From Methylotenera sp. (GTDB taxonomy: Bacteria; Pseudomonadota; Gammaproteobacteria; Burkholderiales; Methylophilaceae), in assembly GCF_029945705.1 (NCBI RefSeq), contig NZ_JAQSDC010000036.1, positions 62,001 to 126,000 of the forward strand: 64,000 nucleotides of DNA. The letters run 5' to 3'. The notes beneath the pieces were generated by a model that saw nothing but the letters and a program-made list of their open reading frames with translations, made no database searches and was not told the DNA's origin. Positions 32,465 through 48,561 of this stretch are shown here, in pieces. The translations under genes were made by a program, and so were the position numbers. Position 1 is the stretch's first letter, and each line of letters opens with the position of its first letter.

Positions 32465-35400
32465 TCACGAGCCCTCAATCAGCTTAATTTCATCGTCACT
32501 CATGCCATAAAGCGCATACACCATGGCGTCTAGCTCAGCTTCAAGCACGCTGGTGTCTTGGTTATTTTGTCTAGCTAAAATAATTGAATCTATTTTATCA
32601 ACAAAAGGCTTCTGGTTTTCTGCCTCTTTTATTGGTAACCTAGCAAGATTTTCTTTTTTCACCTCAGCCAAAGCCTCACCTTTCTCAGGGTTTAGCAAAC
32701 TGTGATAGTAATCAATTAGTTTGGAGTTAAGTAATGCCAACAAATACCTTAACTCTAATTTACTACTGCCAGCCGTGATTACATGCAAGTTATTCATACA
32801 AACAAATTGCTCTTTATCTAAAGCAGCAATGATTGTATCGCCAGTCTGCCTAACAACTACTTTTTCGTTAGCTTCAAAATTAGCACTATATCTAGGTTCT
32901 GCTAGCCACTCTCCAAACTTTATCCAACGAGAACCATCCCAGCGAGTTTCGTAACGCGTTATATCTGAACCTCTTAAAAGTTTTTTATACGTATCATCAA
33001 TCTGAAAAGTCGCATCAAAAACTCTTTTCTCAACGGTCTCTGCCGTTTGCTTCGGCTTACCTTTACCTTTTTGATATGGCTTAAGGCCTACAACAACATT
33101 AAATAAATCACCAAGTAATATATTATTTTCTTCAATTTTAGACTTTAGTTCTAAAGTTGGTAATGCCATAAAAATATTTATCGCATCTCCATTCAAATCA
33201 GCCCATTTTGATTGAGATGCGGCAATTAGCCGAGACAAATCATCACTAGATGCATAATCTTTTATAGGGATAGAGTTGTTTTTTTCAGTCGTTTTTTTAA
33301 GAAAAACTGACACTGTATCAACTACAGCTTCATCAAATACGGATTTTTGATAGCTTGCGATTTCGTGTATGTATGTTTGAGAAATAATGAATTCTCTAAT
33401 TTTCCTCAACTTGAGGTTTGTTAGCCAAGTATTAGGGATTATGTAGCTTAAAAAAGCATTTTGCTTTAATAACTCAACACTTCTCTCTATAAATAGCAAA
33501 TATGTATCTAATTGATAATCTTGATGTTTGTAATAGTTTAGATAAAAAGCCTTATCGTTTTCACCTAAGTGCGCACCGTAAGGCGGATTACCAATCACCA
33601 CATCAAAACCCACAAAGTCACCTTGTTCATTGAGCACTTCAGGGAACTCAAAGCGCCATTCAAAGGCGTTTTGGTAAATAGCGCCGCTTTCAATTTCTTG
33701 CTTTTTAATGAGTGCTGTTTTTACTTCTTTTAGCTTGGCATCTTGGCTTTTTTCATTGGTGGCTATGGCAAACATTTCGGCTTGTTTGCCTCTTAAGCCG
33801 AGGTCTATAAACGCCATCATTTCTAACTCTTTGCTTAAGCCATCAAAGCTAAATTGCTTTACGTATTCTGTTAGCTTGATATTGAGTGCTTTAGTGACGG
33901 CGTGCCCACTTTTAAGCTTTTCTTGAAACTTGGCTTTCATGGCATCAATGCTTTGTAACACATCGTGCTTGCTGCCAATATTTTCTTTATATTGTGTTAC
34001 TTTTTGTTTGTAATCTTGAATCTCGGCTTTGATGGTTTTGCTGTCTAAGTCATCTGTTAAACCAAAGCGGCTAATTAAGCTGTTGCCACATTTAATATTA
34101 ATGTCGATATTTGGCAAGGTGTCTAGCTGGCCATCATCTTTATAGTAGGCATTTTTGAGTAGTTCTATCCAAAGCCTTAGCCTGCAAATATTGACTGAGT
34201 TTGGGTTAATGTCCACACCAAACAGGCAGTTTTCAATGAGTAGTTGTTTTTCTTTAAACAGGGTTTTTTGAATACGGGTTTTTTCGGTGTGGTTCTTTTT
34301 ATATTCAAATAGCTCGCCTTCTGGGCTTTTGATAATTAACTCGTCGTTTTCTATGCTTAAGCTGTAGTCTTTAATACGCTTGCCGTCTTCGCTCACCAGC
34401 ACGCCAAGCTCGCTTTTAATACGCAGCATTTCATTGAGTGCAGAAACTAAAAAGTGACCGCTACCCACGGCTGGGTCACAAATTTTAATGCTGTTAATCA
34501 GCGTATTGGCTTCTGTTATCTCTAAGTCTTTATTATGTAAATCGGTGAGCGTTTTACATTGCCAGCCTTTTGCCGCATTGAATTTATCAATAATGGTTTT
34601 GGTAATGGTTTCGCGCGCCATGTACATGGTAATAAAGCTTGGCGTGTAAAAGCTACCGTCTTTATAGCCGTTAATTTTTTCAAATATTAAACCGAGTACC
34701 GAGGCGCTAATGAGCGATTTTGATTGGCTCACCAGCTCTTCATCGCTGTCATTGGCAAAATCAAAAGCATCTAAAAAAGCCAATAAGTAAGGCAGCGTGC
34801 TCACTTTGCCTGTTTTGCGTTGGTTGTTGCTGTCTTTCACTACGGTTTTGGCGTAATAATCTATGGTGACGTTATCGACTAAGTTAGAAACCTTAATGCC
34901 GCTGTTTTCATCTGGGTGCACTTCAAAAAGCGAGCTGTTAAGGTAAGGGATATGGTCAAACTCACGCACGTAGCGTTTATCTATGGGCTTGGCGAGCACT
35001 TCAAAAAATAGGGTTTCGAGCGCATCGTATTGGTCTAGCGTGTTGGGGTTTAAAAACTTGTGGTCTTTATTGCCTGTCCATTTCACAATTTGTGATTCAA
35101 GCAATTTTAAAAATAGAATACGATTTACCCAAATAATAATGAGCTTAATCACTGCCTCAAAGTCATTTGGTTTGTTGTATTGCGCAAGTTTGTGGCTAAT
35201 GTTTTCATACAGCGTGCCATTTTGCGGGTTTTTGGCGCGGCCGATGATTTTCTTACCGCCATCTTTGCTTTCTTCTAGCCCTAAAATATAAAGCAATTCG
35301 GTATAAAAATCGCGGTTTAAGCTGTTGGCATCGTTTGGGTTAAATTCTTTGAGTAAGCAATCAGCGCTTAATAGTTTGTAAATGGCGGTGAGTTCTTTTT

Positions 35401-36046
35401 CATTGGCTGGCAGCTGAACATTAAAGTGCGCACATTCTATTTCTTCAGGGTCTAGTAAGTCTTTTTTAAGCTTGGGTAGTTCGCGCTCAAGTGCTTGGTA
35501 AAACTCTGCTGTGGTGTCGCCTAATAACGATTTGCTGGTGTGCGCATCGTATAACTTTTTTACGGTGGAGTTACGCCAAAATAATCGGTCAAAATCTTTA
35601 GCGTCAAATACAAACCAGTTATTAAAGTCGGTCACAATAATATGAAAAAGTGCTTTATTGTCTTTTGCGCGCTCATTCATAAAATACATAATAGCTTGCT
35701 GAAATGACTTTCTGTTTAAGTCTTGTTCCACAATCATGTCGGTACTATTAGGCATTTTTGCTTCAATAATTACCGAAGGTTTTAGGTTTTGCATCACCGC
35801 TAAGTCAATGCTGATTTGCCCCTTTTGACTATATGGTTCACTTTTGTAGCCAAAACTATCTAAAAATGGCTTGAGTGCGCTAGCAACAATGTTAGGCTCG
35901 GTTTGATTGGTGCTTATTTGGTCGGCAAGAGATTTTTTATAGTGCTCTAATGCCTGTTTAAAAGCGTTAAACTTGTCAGCATCTAACGCTTTGCGAGATA
36001 GAAGTGGGTTGATGAAGTTTCTAGGCTTTTGTTTATTTAACTTCAT
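32465..36046 (-). CDS. Type IIG restriction-modification enzyme (Eco57I-like methylase fusion)
   Basis: A 1,193-residue single polypeptide that should both cut and methylate DNA. Residues about 75-100 have a PD-(D/E)xK-like nuclease core (ISIDLAV, then VIIEAK). A helical middle is followed by an N6-adenine methylase with the SAM motif CDPAVGSGHF near residue 525 and catalytic NPPY (VIGNPPYGAH) near 818. The last 300 residues look like a target recognition domain (LLRGSDITRY, WIKFGEWL). Start ATG 36046. Recognition sequence unknown. It sits next to fic, forming a small defence locus between housekeeping genes. Confidence 0.9.
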   Translation of the reverse strand: MKLNKQKPRNFINPLLSRKALDADKFNAFKQALEHYKKSLADQISTNQTEPNIVASALKPFLDSFGYKSEPYSQKGQISIDLAVMQNLKPSVIIEAKMPNSTDMIVEQDLNRKSFQQAIMYFMNERAKDNKALFHIIVTDFNNWFVFDAKDFDRLFWRNSTVKKLYDAHTSKSLLGDTTAEFYQALERELPKLKKDLLDPEEIECAHFNVQLPANEKELTAIYKLLSADCLLKEFNPNDANSLNRDFYTELLYILGLEESKDGGKKIIGRAKNPQNGTLYENISHKLAQYNKPNDFEAVIKLIIIWVNRILFLKLLESQIVKWTGNKDHKFLNPNTLDQYDALETLFFEVLAKPIDKRYVREFDHIPYLNSSLFEVHPDENSGIKVSNLVDNVTIDYYAKTVVKDSNNQRKTGKVSTLPYLLAFLDAFDFANDSDEELVSQSKSLISASVLGLIFEKINGYKDGSFYTPSFITMYMARETITKTIIDKFNAAKGWQCKTLTDLHNKDLEITEANTLINSIKICDPAVGSGHFLVSALNEMLRIKSELGVLVSEDGKRIKDYSLSIENDELIIKSPEGELFEYKKNHTEKTRIQKTLFKEKQLLIENCLFGVDINPNSVNICRLRLWIELLKNAYYKDDGQLDTLPNIDINIKCGNSLISRFGLTDDLDSKTIKAEIQDYKQKVTQYKENIGSKHDVLQSIDAMKAKFQEKLKSGHAVTKALNIKLTEYVKQFSFDGLSKELEMMAFIDLGLRGKQAEMFAIATNEKSQDAKLKEVKTALIKKQEIESGAIYQNAFEWRFEFPEVLNEQGDFVGFDVVIGNPPYGAHLGENDKAFYLNYYKHQDYQLDTYLLFIERSVELLKQNAFLSYIIPNTWLTNLKLRKIREFIISQTYIHEIASYQKSVFDEAVVDTVSVFLKKTTEKNNSIPIKDYASSDDLSRLIAASQSKWADLNGDAINIFMALPTLELKSKIEENNILLGDLFNVVVGLKPYQKGKGKPKQTAETVEKRVFDATFQIDDTYKKLLRGSDITRYETRWDGSRWIKFGEWLAEPRYSANFEANEKVVVRQTGDTIIAALDKEQFVCMNNLHVITAGSSKLELRYLLALLNSKLIDYYHSLLNPEKGEALAEVKKENLARLPIKEAENQKPFVDKIDSIILARQNNQDTSVLEAELDAMVYALYGMSDDEIKLIEGS

Positions 36047-37881: not shown

Positions 37882-38100
37882 CTAGAAATCACTACTTCGT
37901 CCTGAAGAGTAGCCTTGTGGCACATCGTTTTGTAGCTCTCCGCATTGCGCGCAACGATGATCATGCATGGTTGGACTTAATATCAAGTCTGCACTGCCGC
38001 AGAACTTGCAGTGTTTAGCCGTTTCTACTGGCGCCTTATGATGTGTTTCATGGTGTTCGGTAGCCACTTTAGTGCTACCCAAACCGTACTTATTATCCAT
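37882..38100 (-). CDS. Small zinc-ribbon protein
   Basis: A 72-residue protein with two CxxC pairs (HCKFCGSADL and HRCAQCGEL) spaced for one zinc ribbon, and a His-rich N-terminal part (TEHHETHHKAP). ATG 38100 is chosen because GGAGG lies 7 nt upstream. The longer frame from 38145 would bury that ribosome site in coding sequence. I do not recognise a named family. The His-rich stretch may bind metal. It lies alone between gnd and the lipoprotein gene. Confidence 0.75.
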   Translation of the reverse strand: MDNKYGLGSTKVATEHHETHHKAPVETAKHCKFCGSADLILSPTMHDHRCAQCGELQNDVPQGYSSGRSSDF

Positions 38101-41128: not shown

Positions 41129-42550
41129 ATGTCAATATTACTTAATACAAGCAATTTGCTGCCACATGGTTACTGCATTAACTGGTCGCCTACTCTTTTA
41201 TGGCTGTATGTGGCGTCTGATGCCGCGATTGTGTTAGCTTACTACTCAATACCTTTAACTTTAACGTACTTTGTTTGGCAAAGAAAAGACTTACAATTTC
41301 GTGGGATTTTTTTGCTATTTAGCACATTTATTCTTTCTTGCGGCACTACTCACTTACTCGACATTATCATTTTTTGGAATCCCATTTACTGGCTAGACGC
41401 GGGCATGAAAGCCTTCACAGCCACGATTTCAGTGATTACAGCGATAGCCCTAGTCTATATTACGCCTCAGGCATTAAAGTTACCCTCTCCTTCTCAATAC
41501 GATAAAGAGGTCTATGACCGTTTACAAGCGTATGAGGCACTAAAAGAGGCTCAAGCATCACTGATTGAAGTCGATGAATATAAAAAATCTGAAGTTGCGT
41601 TGCATGCGAGTGAGCAAAGACTGCAATTAGTATTAAAAGCCAGCCAACTTGGATTTTGGGATTGGGACATCAAGAATAATATTGTGACTAGAAATGAGCG
41701 TTGGGCAGAGATGCTAGGCTATCAATTGAGTGATATTGAATTTTCAGTCAAGCAATGGGAGGATTTTATTCACCCTGACGATAGGAAAATAGCATGGCAA
41801 TCAATCCAAGACAATATTGAAGGCCGTTCAGCAACACATGCGCTTGAATACCGTATGCGCACAAAAAATGGTGAATACAAGTGGATACTTGATCAAGCGC
41901 AAGTGGTATCAAGGGATGTTAATAACAAAGCGACTCGCATGTGCGGAACGCATACAGACATTACCGAACGTAAAAACATGGAAGAGCAAGTGCGCAACTT
42001 TGCTTTTTATGACGCGCTTACCCAATTGCCTAACCGACGCCTCTTAGGCGACAGGTTAACCAAAGCCATCTCTACCAGCAAGCGAAGTGGATATTATGGT
42101 GCACTGATGTTTCTCGATCTAGATAACTTTAAGCCAATTAATGACGCGCATGGACATCATGCTGGCGATTTACTATTAATTGAAGCGGCCAGTCGCTTAA
42201 CAGGCTGTATTAGAGAGGTTGATACGGTTGCACGCCTTGGTGGCGATGAGTTCGTATTGATATTGAATGAGTTAAGCCTAGATAAAGCAGAATCCATTTC
42301 AGAGACTAAGTTGGTCGCTGAAAAAATACTAGACGTATTATCTAAGCCATACTTGCTAATAGAAACGCATGTTGGGCAAAAGGATAAGGTCATCGAGCAT
42401 CACTGCACTGCCAGCATTGGCGCTGTTGTATTCATTAAGGATCAAGCCAGCGAGGCTGACCTCATGAGCTGGGCAGATGCTGCCATGTATACAGCCAAGG
42501 ACGAAGGTCGGAATTTAATTCGATTCCATGGTGACTCTGCAATCCTTTAA
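41129..42550 (+). CDS. Diguanylate cyclase with ethylene-receptor-like (ETR1-type) membrane sensor and PAS domain
   Basis: A 473-residue signalling protein. Residues about 22-115 form three membrane helices matching the ethylene/copper-binding domain of plant ETR1. Asp31, Tyr38, Ile41, Pro42, Cys71 and His75 all align with ETR1 Asp25, Tyr32, Ile35, Pro36, Cys65 and His69 at a constant offset of six. A short coiled coil follows, then a PAS/PAC domain (about 165-285), then GGDEF (about 290-465) with intact active site RLGGDEF and the RxxD inhibitory site (REVD) five residues before it. It should therefore make cyclic di-GMP. The ligand could be ethylene, another small alkene, or copper itself. 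No EAL domain. Confidence 0.88.
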   Translation: MSILLNTSNLLPHGYCINWSPTLLWLYVASDAAIVLAYYSIPLTLTYFVWQRKDLQFRGIFLLFSTFILSCGTTHLLDIIIFWNPIYWLDAGMKAFTATISVITAIALVYITPQALKLPSPSQYDKEVYDRLQAYEALKEAQASLIEVDEYKKSEVALHASEQRLQLVLKASQLGFWDWDIKNNIVTRNERWAEMLGYQLSDIEFSVKQWEDFIHPDDRKIAWQSIQDNIEGRSATHALEYRMRTKNGEYKWILDQAQVVSRDVNNKATRMCGTHTDITERKNMEEQVRNFAFYDALTQLPNRRLLGDRLTKAISTSKRSGYYGALMFLDLDNFKPINDAHGHHAGDLLLIEAASRLTGCIREVDTVARLGGDEFVLILNELSLDKAESISETKLVAEKILDVLSKPYLLIETHVGQKDKVIEHHCTASIGAVVFIKDQASEADLMSWADAAMYTAKDEGRNLIRFHGDSAIL

Positions 42551-42617: not shown

Positions 42618-43646
42618 TTATTTTTCGCTTTTTTCTACCGTATTCAGTTGCTCAAGTGTATTCTCATCTAGTGCGCTCAGCATACCACTCCAGTCTTTCA
42701 GTTCAGCCAATGCGCCTTGTTCTTTGGCAATTTTAGCAAGTGCTAAAACGCTAGAAGTATGGTGTGGATTTAGTACTAAAACTCGTTTAAATTCCGCTTT
42801 AGCTTGCTCTACTGCGCCTAGATTATATTGCGCGAGTGCATCATAATAAATCGCTTCAGGCTCAGTTGGCTCATGCTGTTGCCATTCGTTAGCAACCACC
42901 AGCAAATCTTGCCATTTACCTGCTTGCATCGGCAGCACTACTTGCATCCAATATGGGCGTTTTTCAAGCGGTGCATCCCAAAAGGCTGGCTCTGTTTGAA
43001 TCACTTTATCGGTCTCAGGTAATGCCATGGCAGCTTTAATCCATTTAGCAGGCACATTGTAGTAATAGGCATTTGCACCGGGACTTTTAACGGTATTTAA
43101 GCCAATTAACTTGCCTTGGTCATTAAACAGCGGACTACCACTTGCCCCCATTTGGAACGAGGCTGATGTACGAATTACATAACTATCGTCCATGGCGTAT
43201 AAGGCTTTAATCTTACCCACGGTGGTGAGTGGCTTGGCTGCACCACCTGGGAAACCAACTGAAAAGGTTGAAGCTTCATAAACGAGCGGGTTATCATCAG
43301 CAAAAGTCGCTGGTTTTAGGGGTAGAAATTGAAAACGAAGTATACATACATCGTGCTTCCAATCGGCTCTAACTGCTTCAGGGATATATGTCTCACCCAT
43401 GGCAGTCACATTGCTACCCAAAGAATCGGCTAAAACATGGCAATTGGTTGCCACTAAATTTTCCGCCACCACCACACCCGAGCCACTGCCTTGCCTGCCT
43501 GTTTTAGTGACGGTATGCACCTTAACAATCGTACCCTTGAGATTGTAGACCAACTCTGGAGATGGCTCTGCCGATGCGACTTGAATCACGATGAGCTGAC
43601 TCATCATCATGGGAAGTAATAATTTACTTAAGAATTGAAATCTCAT
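42618..43646 (-). CDS. Exported trypsin-like serine protease with C-terminal TPR-like region
   Basis: A 342-residue protein with a signal peptide (LLLPMMMSQLIVIQVASA). The chymotrypsin-like fold shows the catalytic triad: His in ATNCHVLAD, Asp in HDVCILRF and Ser in GASGSPLFN. After about residue 225 a helical part follows with one or two TPR-like repeats (EAIYYDALAQYNLGAVEQAKAEFKRVL). There is no PDZ domain, so it is not a DegP-type enzyme. Substrate unknown. It ends about 100 bp from the nitrate reductase stop. Confidence 0.85.
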   Translation of the reverse strand: MRFQFLSKLLLPMMMSQLIVIQVASAEPSPELVYNLKGTIVKVHTVTKTGRQGSGSGVVVAENLVATNCHVLADSLGSNVTAMGETYIPEAVRADWKHDVCILRFQFLPLKPATFADDNPLVYEASTFSVGFPGGAAKPLTTVGKIKALYAMDDSYVIRTSASFQMGASGSPLFNDQGKLIGLNTVKSPGANAYYYNVPAKWIKAAMALPETDKVIQTEPAFWDAPLEKRPYWMQVVLPMQAGKWQDLLVVANEWQQHEPTEPEAIYYDALAQYNLGAVEQAKAEFKRVLVLNPHHTSSVLALAKIAKEQGALAELKDWSGMLSALDENTLEQLNTVEKSEK

Positions 43647-46866: not shown

Positions 46867-48561
46867 TTACGAAACAACTAATAAATAAATTAACAATAAA
46901 TTTACAACAAATGAAAGAATAGCAATCCACTGCCATTTAACTAATCTAGCACGTGCGATTAGTGGGGTACGTGCTGGCGCTAAAATCGGCTTTAACTCAC
47001 CATGTTCAAGCGCTAATAACATTTCTTCTGCTGTTTCAAAGCGCACTTTTAAATCACGCGCGATGGCTTTAAGAATAATATTTTCTAACCAATACGGTAT
47101 ATCTGGCCTATATCTTGTCGGTGAAATGGGCTCACCAAATTTTGGGCGTTGAAATGGCTCAATTTCCCCATGCGGATACTTACGTGTGAGCAAGTAATAG
47201 AGTGTGACCCCTGCTGCGTAAATATCACTTTGTACTGTGGCTGGCGTGCCATCAAACAACTCTGGCGCCATAAAGCTTGGCGTGCCAGGATTCTGTGTCA
47301 TTTCCGTGGCAACAATCATGCTACTTAAGGCTACACCTAAATCCAAAATACGCAATCGTTGATCTGTCGCTTGGTGAATGTTATCTGGCTTAATATCTCT
47401 ATGTACGATATTGAGCCGATGCAATGCCGCTATACCGCGTAACAAATCAAGCCCGACTTTAGCCACGCCTGCTACCGTGAAGTGATGCCCGCTATCTAAG
47501 CGCTGCTGAAGCGTTGAACCTTCATGCCAACTCATCACATAATAAAGTTTGCTACGTTTCTCTGCGGCCACCGGAAATACTTGCGGCACGTATTGAGAAA
47601 CGACACGCTTTGCCAGCCACTCCTCGTTCAACAAACCATTGCAGCTATCTACATCATTGGCTAATAGCGGCTGCAAGGTTTTTAATACAAAAAGCTGTCG
47701 ACTATTAAGGTGGCGTACTTTGTATAGCAAACTTGCACGAGATTCATATAAAACCTCGACCACCTCAAAATCATCAATGGTTTCGCCTACCTGCAATTTA
47801 TTTGGCACAACCAGATGCTTACCATCCGCTAACAACTCTGAAAGAGTCTCTTCGCCAAGTTGCGTAATTCTAGCGGCAACCGCTGTGCTGTTATCGGTAC
47901 TGCCTTTTTCAATCGCTAACTTAGTCAGTTCGTCGCAAATCATTTGCGGGCTGTCATAAAGCGCCATCGTTTTATGAATATTTTGCTCGCCTAATACATC
48001 CCAAACACCATCACTCATCAAAGCAAATACGTCACCAACTTGAAGCGTGCCATCGGCATAATCCACTTCTAAATGCCTATCTAATCCAACCGCACGCTTT
48101 AAAACGTGGCGCATCTCAGGTCTATCCCATACATGGTCGGTAGTGAGCTGTTTTAGCTTGCCATCTCGAAGCAAATAAATACGCGTATCACCTACGTGTG
48201 CCGAATAATAATGCTGCCCACGCAATACCAATAATGAAAGCGTGGTCGCCATACCCACCATATCGCGGTTTGCATTTGCTTGCGCAATTAACCAACGATT
48301 AGCCGCTGTCAGCACTTTATCTAGTGCCACTAGCGGTTCCCAAGTATCTGGCGTGGCATAGTAATCTGACGTCACCGTGCGCATGGTCATTTCAGAGGCT
48401 TCACCGCCACCTGCATTACCGCTAACGCCATCCGCCACCGCTAACATTGCGCCTTTAATGCTAAGTTGCGCACTTGCTGGAGTAACCACACCCACGTAAT
48501 CTTCATTACGTGTGCGCGGACCCGTTAGGCTGGATTGGCCTATTTCGAATTTTAATGACAT
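46867..48561 (-). CDS. Fused PP2C phosphatase / Ser-Thr kinase, membrane anchored
   Basis: A 564-residue protein with two opposite signalling activities. Residues about 1-240 are a PP2C phosphatase with metal-binding aspartates (VADGVSGNAGGGE; LMSDGVWDVLG). Residues about 260-520 are a eukaryotic-like kinase with the ATP lysine in LFVLKTLQP, HRDIKPDNI, DLG in place of DFG (ILDLGVALS), and the activation end MAPELFDG. A C-terminal helix (WIAILSFVVNLLLIYLLVV) anchors it in the inner membrane. It lies inside the nitrate operon between the transporter and nirD, so it probably tunes nitrate uptake or reduction (inference). Confidence 0.93.
   Translation of the reverse strand: MSLKFEIGQSSLTGPRTRNEDYVGVVTPASAQLSIKGAMLAVADGVSGNAGGGEASEMTMRTVTSDYYATPDTWEPLVALDKVLTAANRWLIAQANANRDMVGMATTLSLLVLRGQHYYSAHVGDTRIYLLRDGKLKQLTTDHVWDRPEMRHVLKRAVGLDRHLEVDYADGTLQVGDVFALMSDGVWDVLGEQNIHKTMALYDSPQMICDELTKLAIEKGSTDNSTAVAARITQLGEETLSELLADGKHLVVPNKLQVGETIDDFEVVEVLYESRASLLYKVRHLNSRQLFVLKTLQPLLANDVDSCNGLLNEEWLAKRVVSQYVPQVFPVAAEKRSKLYYVMSWHEGSTLQQRLDSGHHFTVAGVAKVGLDLLRGIAALHRLNIVHRDIKPDNIHQATDQRLRILDLGVALSSMIVATEMTQNPGTPSFMAPELFDGTPATVQSDIYAAGVTLYYLLTRKYPHGEIEPFQRPKFGEPISPTRYRPDIPYWLENIILKAIARDLKVRFETAEEMLLALEHGELKPILAPARTPLIARARLVKWQWIAILSFVVNLLLIYLLVVS

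Follow-up and report, generated by a model that had tools for sequence, protein, structure and literature searches.

Features of the locus

The window, by which we mean the whole 64,000-nucleotide stretch of Methylotenera DNA analysed here, contains an open reading frame encoding a 473 aa protein in which an N-terminal ethylene-binding domain (EBD) precedes a PAS domain and a GGDEF diguanylate cyclase domain (Table 1). With both adjoining genes lying on the opposite strand, this gene is probably its own transcription unit. A promoter scan returned one site, on the opposite strand, which is fewer than in shuffled sequences, and no Rfam match reached the gathering score between positions 38000 and 46800.

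Table 1. Coordinates, in the window, of the EBD-PAS-GGDEF gene, its parts and genes nearby
Feature	Position	Strand	Evidence
EBD-PAS-GGDEF protein, 473 aa	41129..42550	+	Open reading frame without internal stop; Pfam
EBD plus N-terminal segment, residues 1-125	41129..41503	+	Pfam ETR1_N, AzoEtr1 alignment, conservation
Helix 1, residues 21-51 (D31, Y38, I41, P42)	41189..41281	+	AlphaFold models
Helix 2, residues 58-83 (I68; proposed Cu(I) ligands C71, H75)	41300..41377	+	AlphaFold models; ligand role from ETR1 (PMC13012798, in excerpt)
Helix 3, residues 87-116 (K94, proposed D31 partner)	41387..41476	+	AlphaFold models; covariation, limited by tree
Signalling helices, residues 121-149 and 154-171	41489..41641	+	AlphaFold model (low confidence at 149-153)
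PAS domain, residues 163-280 (PAS_3 core 186-275)	41615..41968	+	Pfam
GGDEF diguanylate cyclase domain, residues 292-462	42002..42514	+	Pfam, genome GGDEF search, fold matches
RxxD product-inhibition (I) site, REVD, residues 362-365	42212..42223	+	Motif reading
GGDEF active-site motif, residues 371-375	42239..42253	+	Motif reading
Trypsin-like gene	42618-43646		
Eco57I-type restriction-modification protein	32465-36046	-	Counterparts of flanking genes adjacent in L075 and L077
Protein phosphatase 2C fused to Ser/Thr kinase	46867-48561	-	Kept in nitrate-assimilation-like neighbourhood

An earlier note on this DNA, made from the letters alone, had proposed an ethylene receptor-like sensor fused to PAS and a cyclic di-GMP (c-di-GMP) synthase, and had looked to a profile search for the sensor. 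Pfam recovered all three parts in the one frame: ETR1_N at residues 23-118 with 125 bits against a cut-off of 27 (129 bits in the genome search), PAS_3 with 83.3 bits and GGDEF with 143.9 bits. NCBIfam likewise finds the GGDEF and PAS parts, with no equivalog cut-off reached among the best 25 of 28 matches. Pfam found no kinase domain in the protein, and two NCBIfam kinase models, among the matches listed, match at the PAS region alone; hence neither collection gave it the histidine kinase-type output of the ethylene receptor kinases. The cyclase domain has, besides the GGDEF motif, the sequence FLDLDNFKPINDAHGHHAGD at residues 328-347, which fits the metal/GTP signature, together with the other GGDEF signature motifs and an RxxD site five residues before the GGDEF motif, so that the intact domain with feedback site read earlier stands. 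These matches confirm that the protein carries an ethylene receptor-type sensor joined to a PAS domain and an intact GGDEF domain.

The binding site compared with ETR1 and AzoEtr1

The note had also placed D31, Y38, I41, P42, C71 and H75 in register with Arabidopsis ETR1 at a constant offset of six with no gaps. All six residues lie where they were read, and the offset holds through helices 1 and 2; it does not extend to the helix 3 lysine, as there are three fewer residues between helices 2 and 3 and ETR1 K91 corresponds to K94, an offset of three. The alignment, against the N-terminal sequence of ETR1, has a local score of 149, whereas 200 shuffled ETR1 sequences averaged 31.8 and reached 53 at most. 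The seven residues required for ethylene binding in ETR1 include I62, which is I68 here and was absent from the earlier list; all seven are kept (D31, Y38, I41, P42, I68, C71 and H75).

The closest experimentally characterised comparison is with AzoEtr1 of Azospirillum brasilense Sp7, which was read in the public record as a 529-codon frame from the ATG giving the published 525 aa, and which has D35, C75, H79 and K98 where the publication puts them (PMC11819568, in excerpt). Over 123 aa it aligns with the window's sensor at 46% identity without gaps, and each of the nine residues compared, among them C16 and K94, lies at the same offset of 4. AzoEtr1 is described as having all seven residues needed for ethylene binding; its residues 1-130, in yeast, showed saturable binding of 14C-ethylene, and either disruption of the gene or added ethylene led to less biofilm (PMC11819568, in excerpt). 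Because the sensor is this similar to an EBD with measured ethylene binding, a gas or copper input to c-di-GMP would be the best-supported mechanism for the 473 aa protein. A plasmid search with the sensor alone returned 19 records, seven of which are from Azospirillum.

Residue conservation was counted over 242 distinct EBDs from 319 records, the order-survey loci being left out. D31 is kept in 220, Y38 in 228, I41 in 216, P42 in 212, I68 in 226, C71 in 235, H75 in 237, K94 in 213 and the single N-terminal cysteine, C16, in 228. All seven required residues are identical in each of the 13 EBDs on uncut GGDEF-only frames (the window's and 12 others, one of which, L016, is a truncated gene lacking the GGDEF motif), in 44 of 65 EBDs on GGDEF-EAL proteins and in 99 of 146 on kinases. 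Of 67 loci having an EBD frame, 34 went into alignment A1 after removal of degenerate copies and near-duplicates.

D31 and K94 rank seventh of 4371 pairs for covariation: where position 31 is non-acidic (10 of 238 EBDs), position 94 is basic in none, as against 222 of the 228 otherwise. This pattern fits the aspartate-lysine salt bridge proposed for ETR1 (PMC13012798, in excerpt), and the putative contact has too few independent changes behind it for a test, about four on the tree with two on well-supported independent paths; covariation was accordingly rejected as proof of contact. Seven EBDs on GGDEF-EAL proteins (L146, L270, L282, L184, L273, L293 and L307) have N or H in place of D31 and have also lost K94. 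These are candidates for natural low-affinity or altered-ligand sensors, because an Asp-to-Asn change reportedly lowers the affinity of the receptor about 100-fold (PMC13012798, in excerpt). In the Methylotenera family, the EBD at L088:5956-8538 has Tyr at the C71, Cys at the Y38 and Ser at the C16 position, making its copper site doubtful; a second EBD gene is broken by a stop within the EBD (L090, genome G105), and a third is truncated to a 348 aa frame with no GGDEF motif (L086, genome G066).

Predicted structure

An AlphaFold model of the 134 aa sensor by itself (71 sequences; mean pLDDT 86.6, pTM 0.71) has three helices, at residues 21-51, 58-83 and 87-117, with a mean pLDDT of at least 88 in 11 of 14 ten-residue blocks. 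Structure prediction, which the earlier note had proposed for the sensor, thus gives three helices in the order of an EBD, and hydropathy windows likewise predict them to be transmembrane. The full-length model (mean pLDDT 85.1, pTM 0.55) ends the third helix at residue 116 and continues with helices 121-149 and 154-171, a PAS fold, a helix at 279-293 and a GGDEF fold. Its best fold matches in the PDB are PAS-GGDEF enzymes and sensor-activated cyclases, a light-activated one among them; the multi-domain superpositions have large rmsd, the close ones being those of the GGDEF part. A fold search with the EBD model gave no match at an E value of 0.001 or better, and PDB sequence searches found no solved EBD structure. 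Spin-label distances in ETR1 reportedly fit the AlphaFold helix arrangement poorly (PMC13012798 section 6, in excerpt), therefore helix packing is not to be taken from such models.

Orthologues, selection and gene neighbourhood

Three orthologues, at 87, 87 and 81% identity, were found in the same genus (genomes G027, G090 and G096), all keeping the binding residues. Each is flanked on one side by gnd, a TsaC-like gene, a cupin gene and AlkB, and on the other by nitrate-assimilation-like genes, of which NirD reaches its cut-off; a molybdopterin oxidoreductase is below cut-off among the matches listed. Across the six pairs, dN/dS lies between 0.03 and 0.09 over the whole gene and, by domain, at 0.02-0.125 (EBD), 0.04-0.115 (PAS) and 0.05-0.07 (GGDEF); these ratios are rough, given that synonymous divergence is about 1 or more, near saturation, in several pairs. 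Hence the orthologues are under purifying selection, the EBD included.

Two further genomes (G127 and G1041) keep AlkB, cupin and the TsaC-like gene with a different other flank, and no EBD gene lies within 1.5 kb of AlkB in either; the family genome survey found no EBD in G127. The trypsin-like gene has no counterpart at the same place in the three orthologous loci. We rejected the idea of an operon partner revealing the input, as the scanned neighbours are AlkB, cupin, trypsin-like and nitrate-assimilation-like genes, none of them pointing to ethylene. Elsewhere in the window, the Eco57I-type protein looks like a lineage-specific insertion, and the phosphatase-kinase fusion has a C-terminal hydrophobic segment.

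The 2.9 Mb window genome (G000) contains five genes for PQQ alcohol dehydrogenases that score above the family cut-off, which bears out the methylotroph host named earlier. The same genome has 32 GGDEF and two PilZ matches, because of which any effect of the EBD-PAS-GGDEF protein on c-di-GMP may be local; with so many GGDEF proteins, its specific effect is not given by the genome.

Distribution of EBDs and their outputs

ETR1_N matches over cut-off occur in 28 of 150 genomes sampled from the family, 25 of 349 from the order, 12 of 369 from the class and 28 of 398 from the phylum, the window's genome being included in each count. They occur in 52 of 121 genomes of a methanotroph order, Methylococcales (NCBI), which is the order of the Methylomonas methanica genome holding L106, itself counted; "methanotroph" serves here as a label for the order as a whole. 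EBDs are hence far commoner there than in the class sample, in a comparison that ignores kinship and sets side by side samples drawn differently. An EBD is present in ten members of the genus and absent from at least 14, and four have the EBD-PAS-GGDEF form.

Outputs were assigned with HMMs seeded on Pfam-scanned proteins, not by a Pfam scan of each, and some frames stop short where the locus ends. The 29 family genes comprise 21 GGDEF-EAL (one frame-broken), five GGDEF (one truncated) and three kinase. In the methanotroph order, 110 genes divide into 61 kinase, 37 GGDEF-EAL, four GGDEF, two GGDEF cut at the locus end and three other, with three lacking an assignment. The class sample adds 13 genes beside the window's (seven kinase, four other, two GGDEF-EAL), and 27 of the 28 phylum-only genes, one having no assignment, are 23 kinase and four other. 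Among 80 named loci, a non-random set picked by similarity to the window's sensor, there are 58 kinase, 12 GGDEF-EAL, six GGDEF, one HD-GYP and three other. Counting by eye gave 14 kinase, ten c-di-GMP and two other for 26 order-sample genes; seven of those ten are EBD-GGDEF proteins of about 540-610 aa from another family, f271 (L353, L354, L358, L360, L363, L365 and L368), and the sole member scanned, L353, has a GAF domain between EBD and GGDEF.

Altogether 80 of 239 distinct EBDs have a c-di-GMP-type output, and the fusion is thus no singular case. A fusion unique to the window genome was rejected on the similar ones in the family and the methanotroph order, as was a rule tying c-di-GMP output to C1 oxidisers on the 61 kinase genes in that order.

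Exchange of outputs within the sensor family

Three of the 242 distinct EBDs were dropped for gaps to give a quick tree of 239 sensors, on which the kinase/c-di-GMP label changes at least 21 times, with at least nine changes of the kinase label forced by well-supported branches. In a careful tree of 70 sensors, the window and its three orthologues fall in an eight-row clade (99/88) with L080 (an HWE kinase of the same genus), L094 and L095 (histidine kinases, L095 from Sulfuritalea) and L093 (HD-GYP). This clade is nested in one of 22 rows (99/90) containing methanotroph GGDEF-EAL proteins and some kinases. EBD outputs have thus been exchanged repeatedly, and the closest relatives beyond the orthologues drive histidine kinases or HD-GYP. 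Since outputs are mixed in the sensor clade, one type of sensor sits on enzymes expected to make or break c-di-GMP as well as on phosphorelay outputs, and from the same mixing we infer that EBDs were probably transferred between lineages.

The L093 gene (L093:4992-6128, from an uncultured proteobacterium) has its EBD joined directly to a domain of HD-GYP type (139 bits to HD_5) and a sensor 70% identical to that of the window. L079, an EBD-PAS-PAS-GGDEF-EAL protein of the Methylophilaceae, shares about 59-62% identity, along most of its length, with the methanotroph proteins L098, L100, L106 and L108, making its gene a candidate for transfer.

Mechanism and alternatives

The reading we consider probable is that of a one-protein ethylene receptor with c-di-GMP synthesis as its output. 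In this reading three membrane helices, probably in a dimer, would bind Cu(I) by C71 and H75 of helix 2, with D31 of helix 1 and K94 of helix 3 tuning affinity and coupling. Ethylene binding would alter the copper site, and the change would pass via helix 3 and helices 121-171 to the PAS domain, a possible site of a second input, and thence through helix 279-293 to a pair of GGDEF domains, where a shift in alignment would change c-di-GMP synthesis, itself subject to product feedback at the RxxD site. EXAFS on ETR1, as reviewed, supports Cu(I) ligands equivalent to C71 and H75 (PMC13012798 section 6, in excerpt). Binding of Cu(I) and ethylene and the dimer would be expected from the tested relatives, and we can only infer that ethylene might control the cyclase, and with what sign. 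Against this reading are its narrow base, the form being found in four members of the genus, and an EBD dN/dS above that of GGDEF in three of the six orthologue pairs.

An alternative is that the EBD reports copper, with Cu(I) loading of C71 and H75, not ethylene, setting cyclase activity. EBDs are common in the methanotroph order, and the particulate methane monooxygenase of methanotrophs needs copper; a search of the window genome for the membrane methane/ammonia monooxygenase family gave no match, but the control genomes gave none either, so that the result says nothing against its presence. Because the same two residues bind Cu(I) in ETR1 (PMC13012798 section 6, in excerpt), metal loading alone could switch the protein. 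However, besides the metal ligands the protein keeps the other residues that ethylene binding requires (D31, Y38, I41, P42 and I68), and no copper gene lies among the scanned neighbours, and we regard a copper sensor as unlikely.

No likelier is a division of labour in which the PAS domain carries the physiological signal and the EBD is mostly a membrane anchor, or a binder of some other small molecule such as an alkene, acetylene or CO. The PAS_3 domain between EBD and GGDEF suits such a scheme, as does a PAS number that ranges from 0 to 5 among EBD relatives; yet strong retention of the binding residues over very different outputs, and purifying selection on the EBD, argue against a mere anchor, both being compatible with another small ligand. 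A largely constitutive, feedback-inhibited cyclase with a vestigial sensor seems very improbable: presence in the genus is patchy, relatives include degenerate or broken EBD genes (L088, L090) and in two of the six pairs the EBD changes at up to about double the rate of GGDEF, but the window protein and its three orthologues keep every binding residue, with an EBD dN/dS of 0.125 or below.

Ecological context

The earlier note had suggested that a gas or copper input to c-di-GMP could guide attachment near plants or other ethylene sources. Guidance near plants finds no support in the nearest relatives, which are Methylotenera, Sulfuritalea and uncultured proteobacterial bins, followed by methanotrophs. 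Plants are one source of ethylene, and sediment ethylene is as plausible, as waterlogged soils and sediments are described as ethylene sources (PMC11507031, in excerpt). The same source reports that ethylene inhibits methane oxidation, and the word "receptor" is absent from its main text. This inhibition, together with the frequency of EBD genes in the methanotroph order, suggests as a hypothesis that EBDs have a role in the methane cycle, on a prevalence comparison that ignores kinship. In Komagataeibacter xylinus, ethylene raises the production of cellulose, a c-di-GMP-activated process, with no receptor reported at the time (PMC4686702, in excerpt), a precedent for ethylene acting on such a process.

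A broader proposal, which we put forward tentatively as a possibility, is that ethylene controls c-di-GMP across the aerobic methane food web. Sensors common to methanotrophs, which are harmed by co-oxidising ethylene, and to methanol-using partners such as Methylotenera would be wired directly to diguanylate cyclases and phosphodiesterases; ethylene from sediment or partners would set attachment or motility, and the sensor would have spread between lineages with its outputs exchanged many times.

The bacterial receptors for which ethylene binding has been demonstrated have kinase outputs (PMC11819568 and PMC6682694, in excerpt), and among the titles and abstract openings listed from the open-licence literature we found no description of an ethylene receptor or EBD fused to GGDEF. 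What is new to us is the direct wiring to c-di-GMP, how often it occurs among methylotrophs and methanotrophs, and that outputs were exchanged inside a single sensor clade. Section 6 of PMC13012798 (in excerpt) poses as an open question how signals from the membrane domain reach the cytoplasmic part of the receptor. With receptor and enzyme in the same chain no partner is required, and a single protein allows ethylene binding, copper and output to be measured; signalling from membrane to cytoplasm can therefore be assayed directly as c-di-GMP production. A further outcome of the survey is an ecological idea that can be tested, resting on the excess of EBDs in the methanotroph order and the inhibition of methane oxidation by ethylene (PMC11507031, in excerpt).

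Comparison with known systems

PAS-GGDEF cyclases (PDB 5xgb and 8c05) and DgcB (6ttr) share the PAS-helix-GGDEF layout and the GGDEF fold with the window protein and rank among its best fold matches, but have no ethylene-binding membrane domain. The EBD-PAS-PAS-GGDEF-EAL proteins of methanotrophs and Methylophilaceae (L079, L098, L106 and L119) belong to the same EBD clade and have a c-di-GMP-type output, differing in an added EAL and a second PAS domain. ETR1 shares the seven binding residues, the three helices and the helix 3 lysine; it differs in a stretch between helices 2 and 3 that is longer by three residues, in having two N-terminal cysteines where the window protein has one (C16), and in its GAF, kinase and receiver output.

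SynEtr1 (Slr1212) of Synechocystis also has a bacterial EBD, which binds ethylene (PMC6682694, in excerpt); it differs in being an EBD-cyanobacteriochrome-histidine kinase, with a light-sensing domain and a kinase output. In Geitlerinema, a separate gene with a diguanylate cyclase domain lies beside GeiEtr2 (PMC6682694, in excerpt). AzoEtr1, an EBD-PAS-histidine kinase, has the seven residues and K98, and a PAS domain follows its EBD; its gene lies on a 1.75-Mb plasmid of a plant-associated bacterium, and it reportedly affects biofilm and root colonisation (PMC11819568, in excerpt). Its output is a histidine kinase with an adjoining response regulator gene, whereas that of the window protein is GGDEF. 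On its domain content, the window protein is hence best described as a putative variant of the known bacterial ethylene receptors in which a c-di-GMP synthase replaces the usual kinase.
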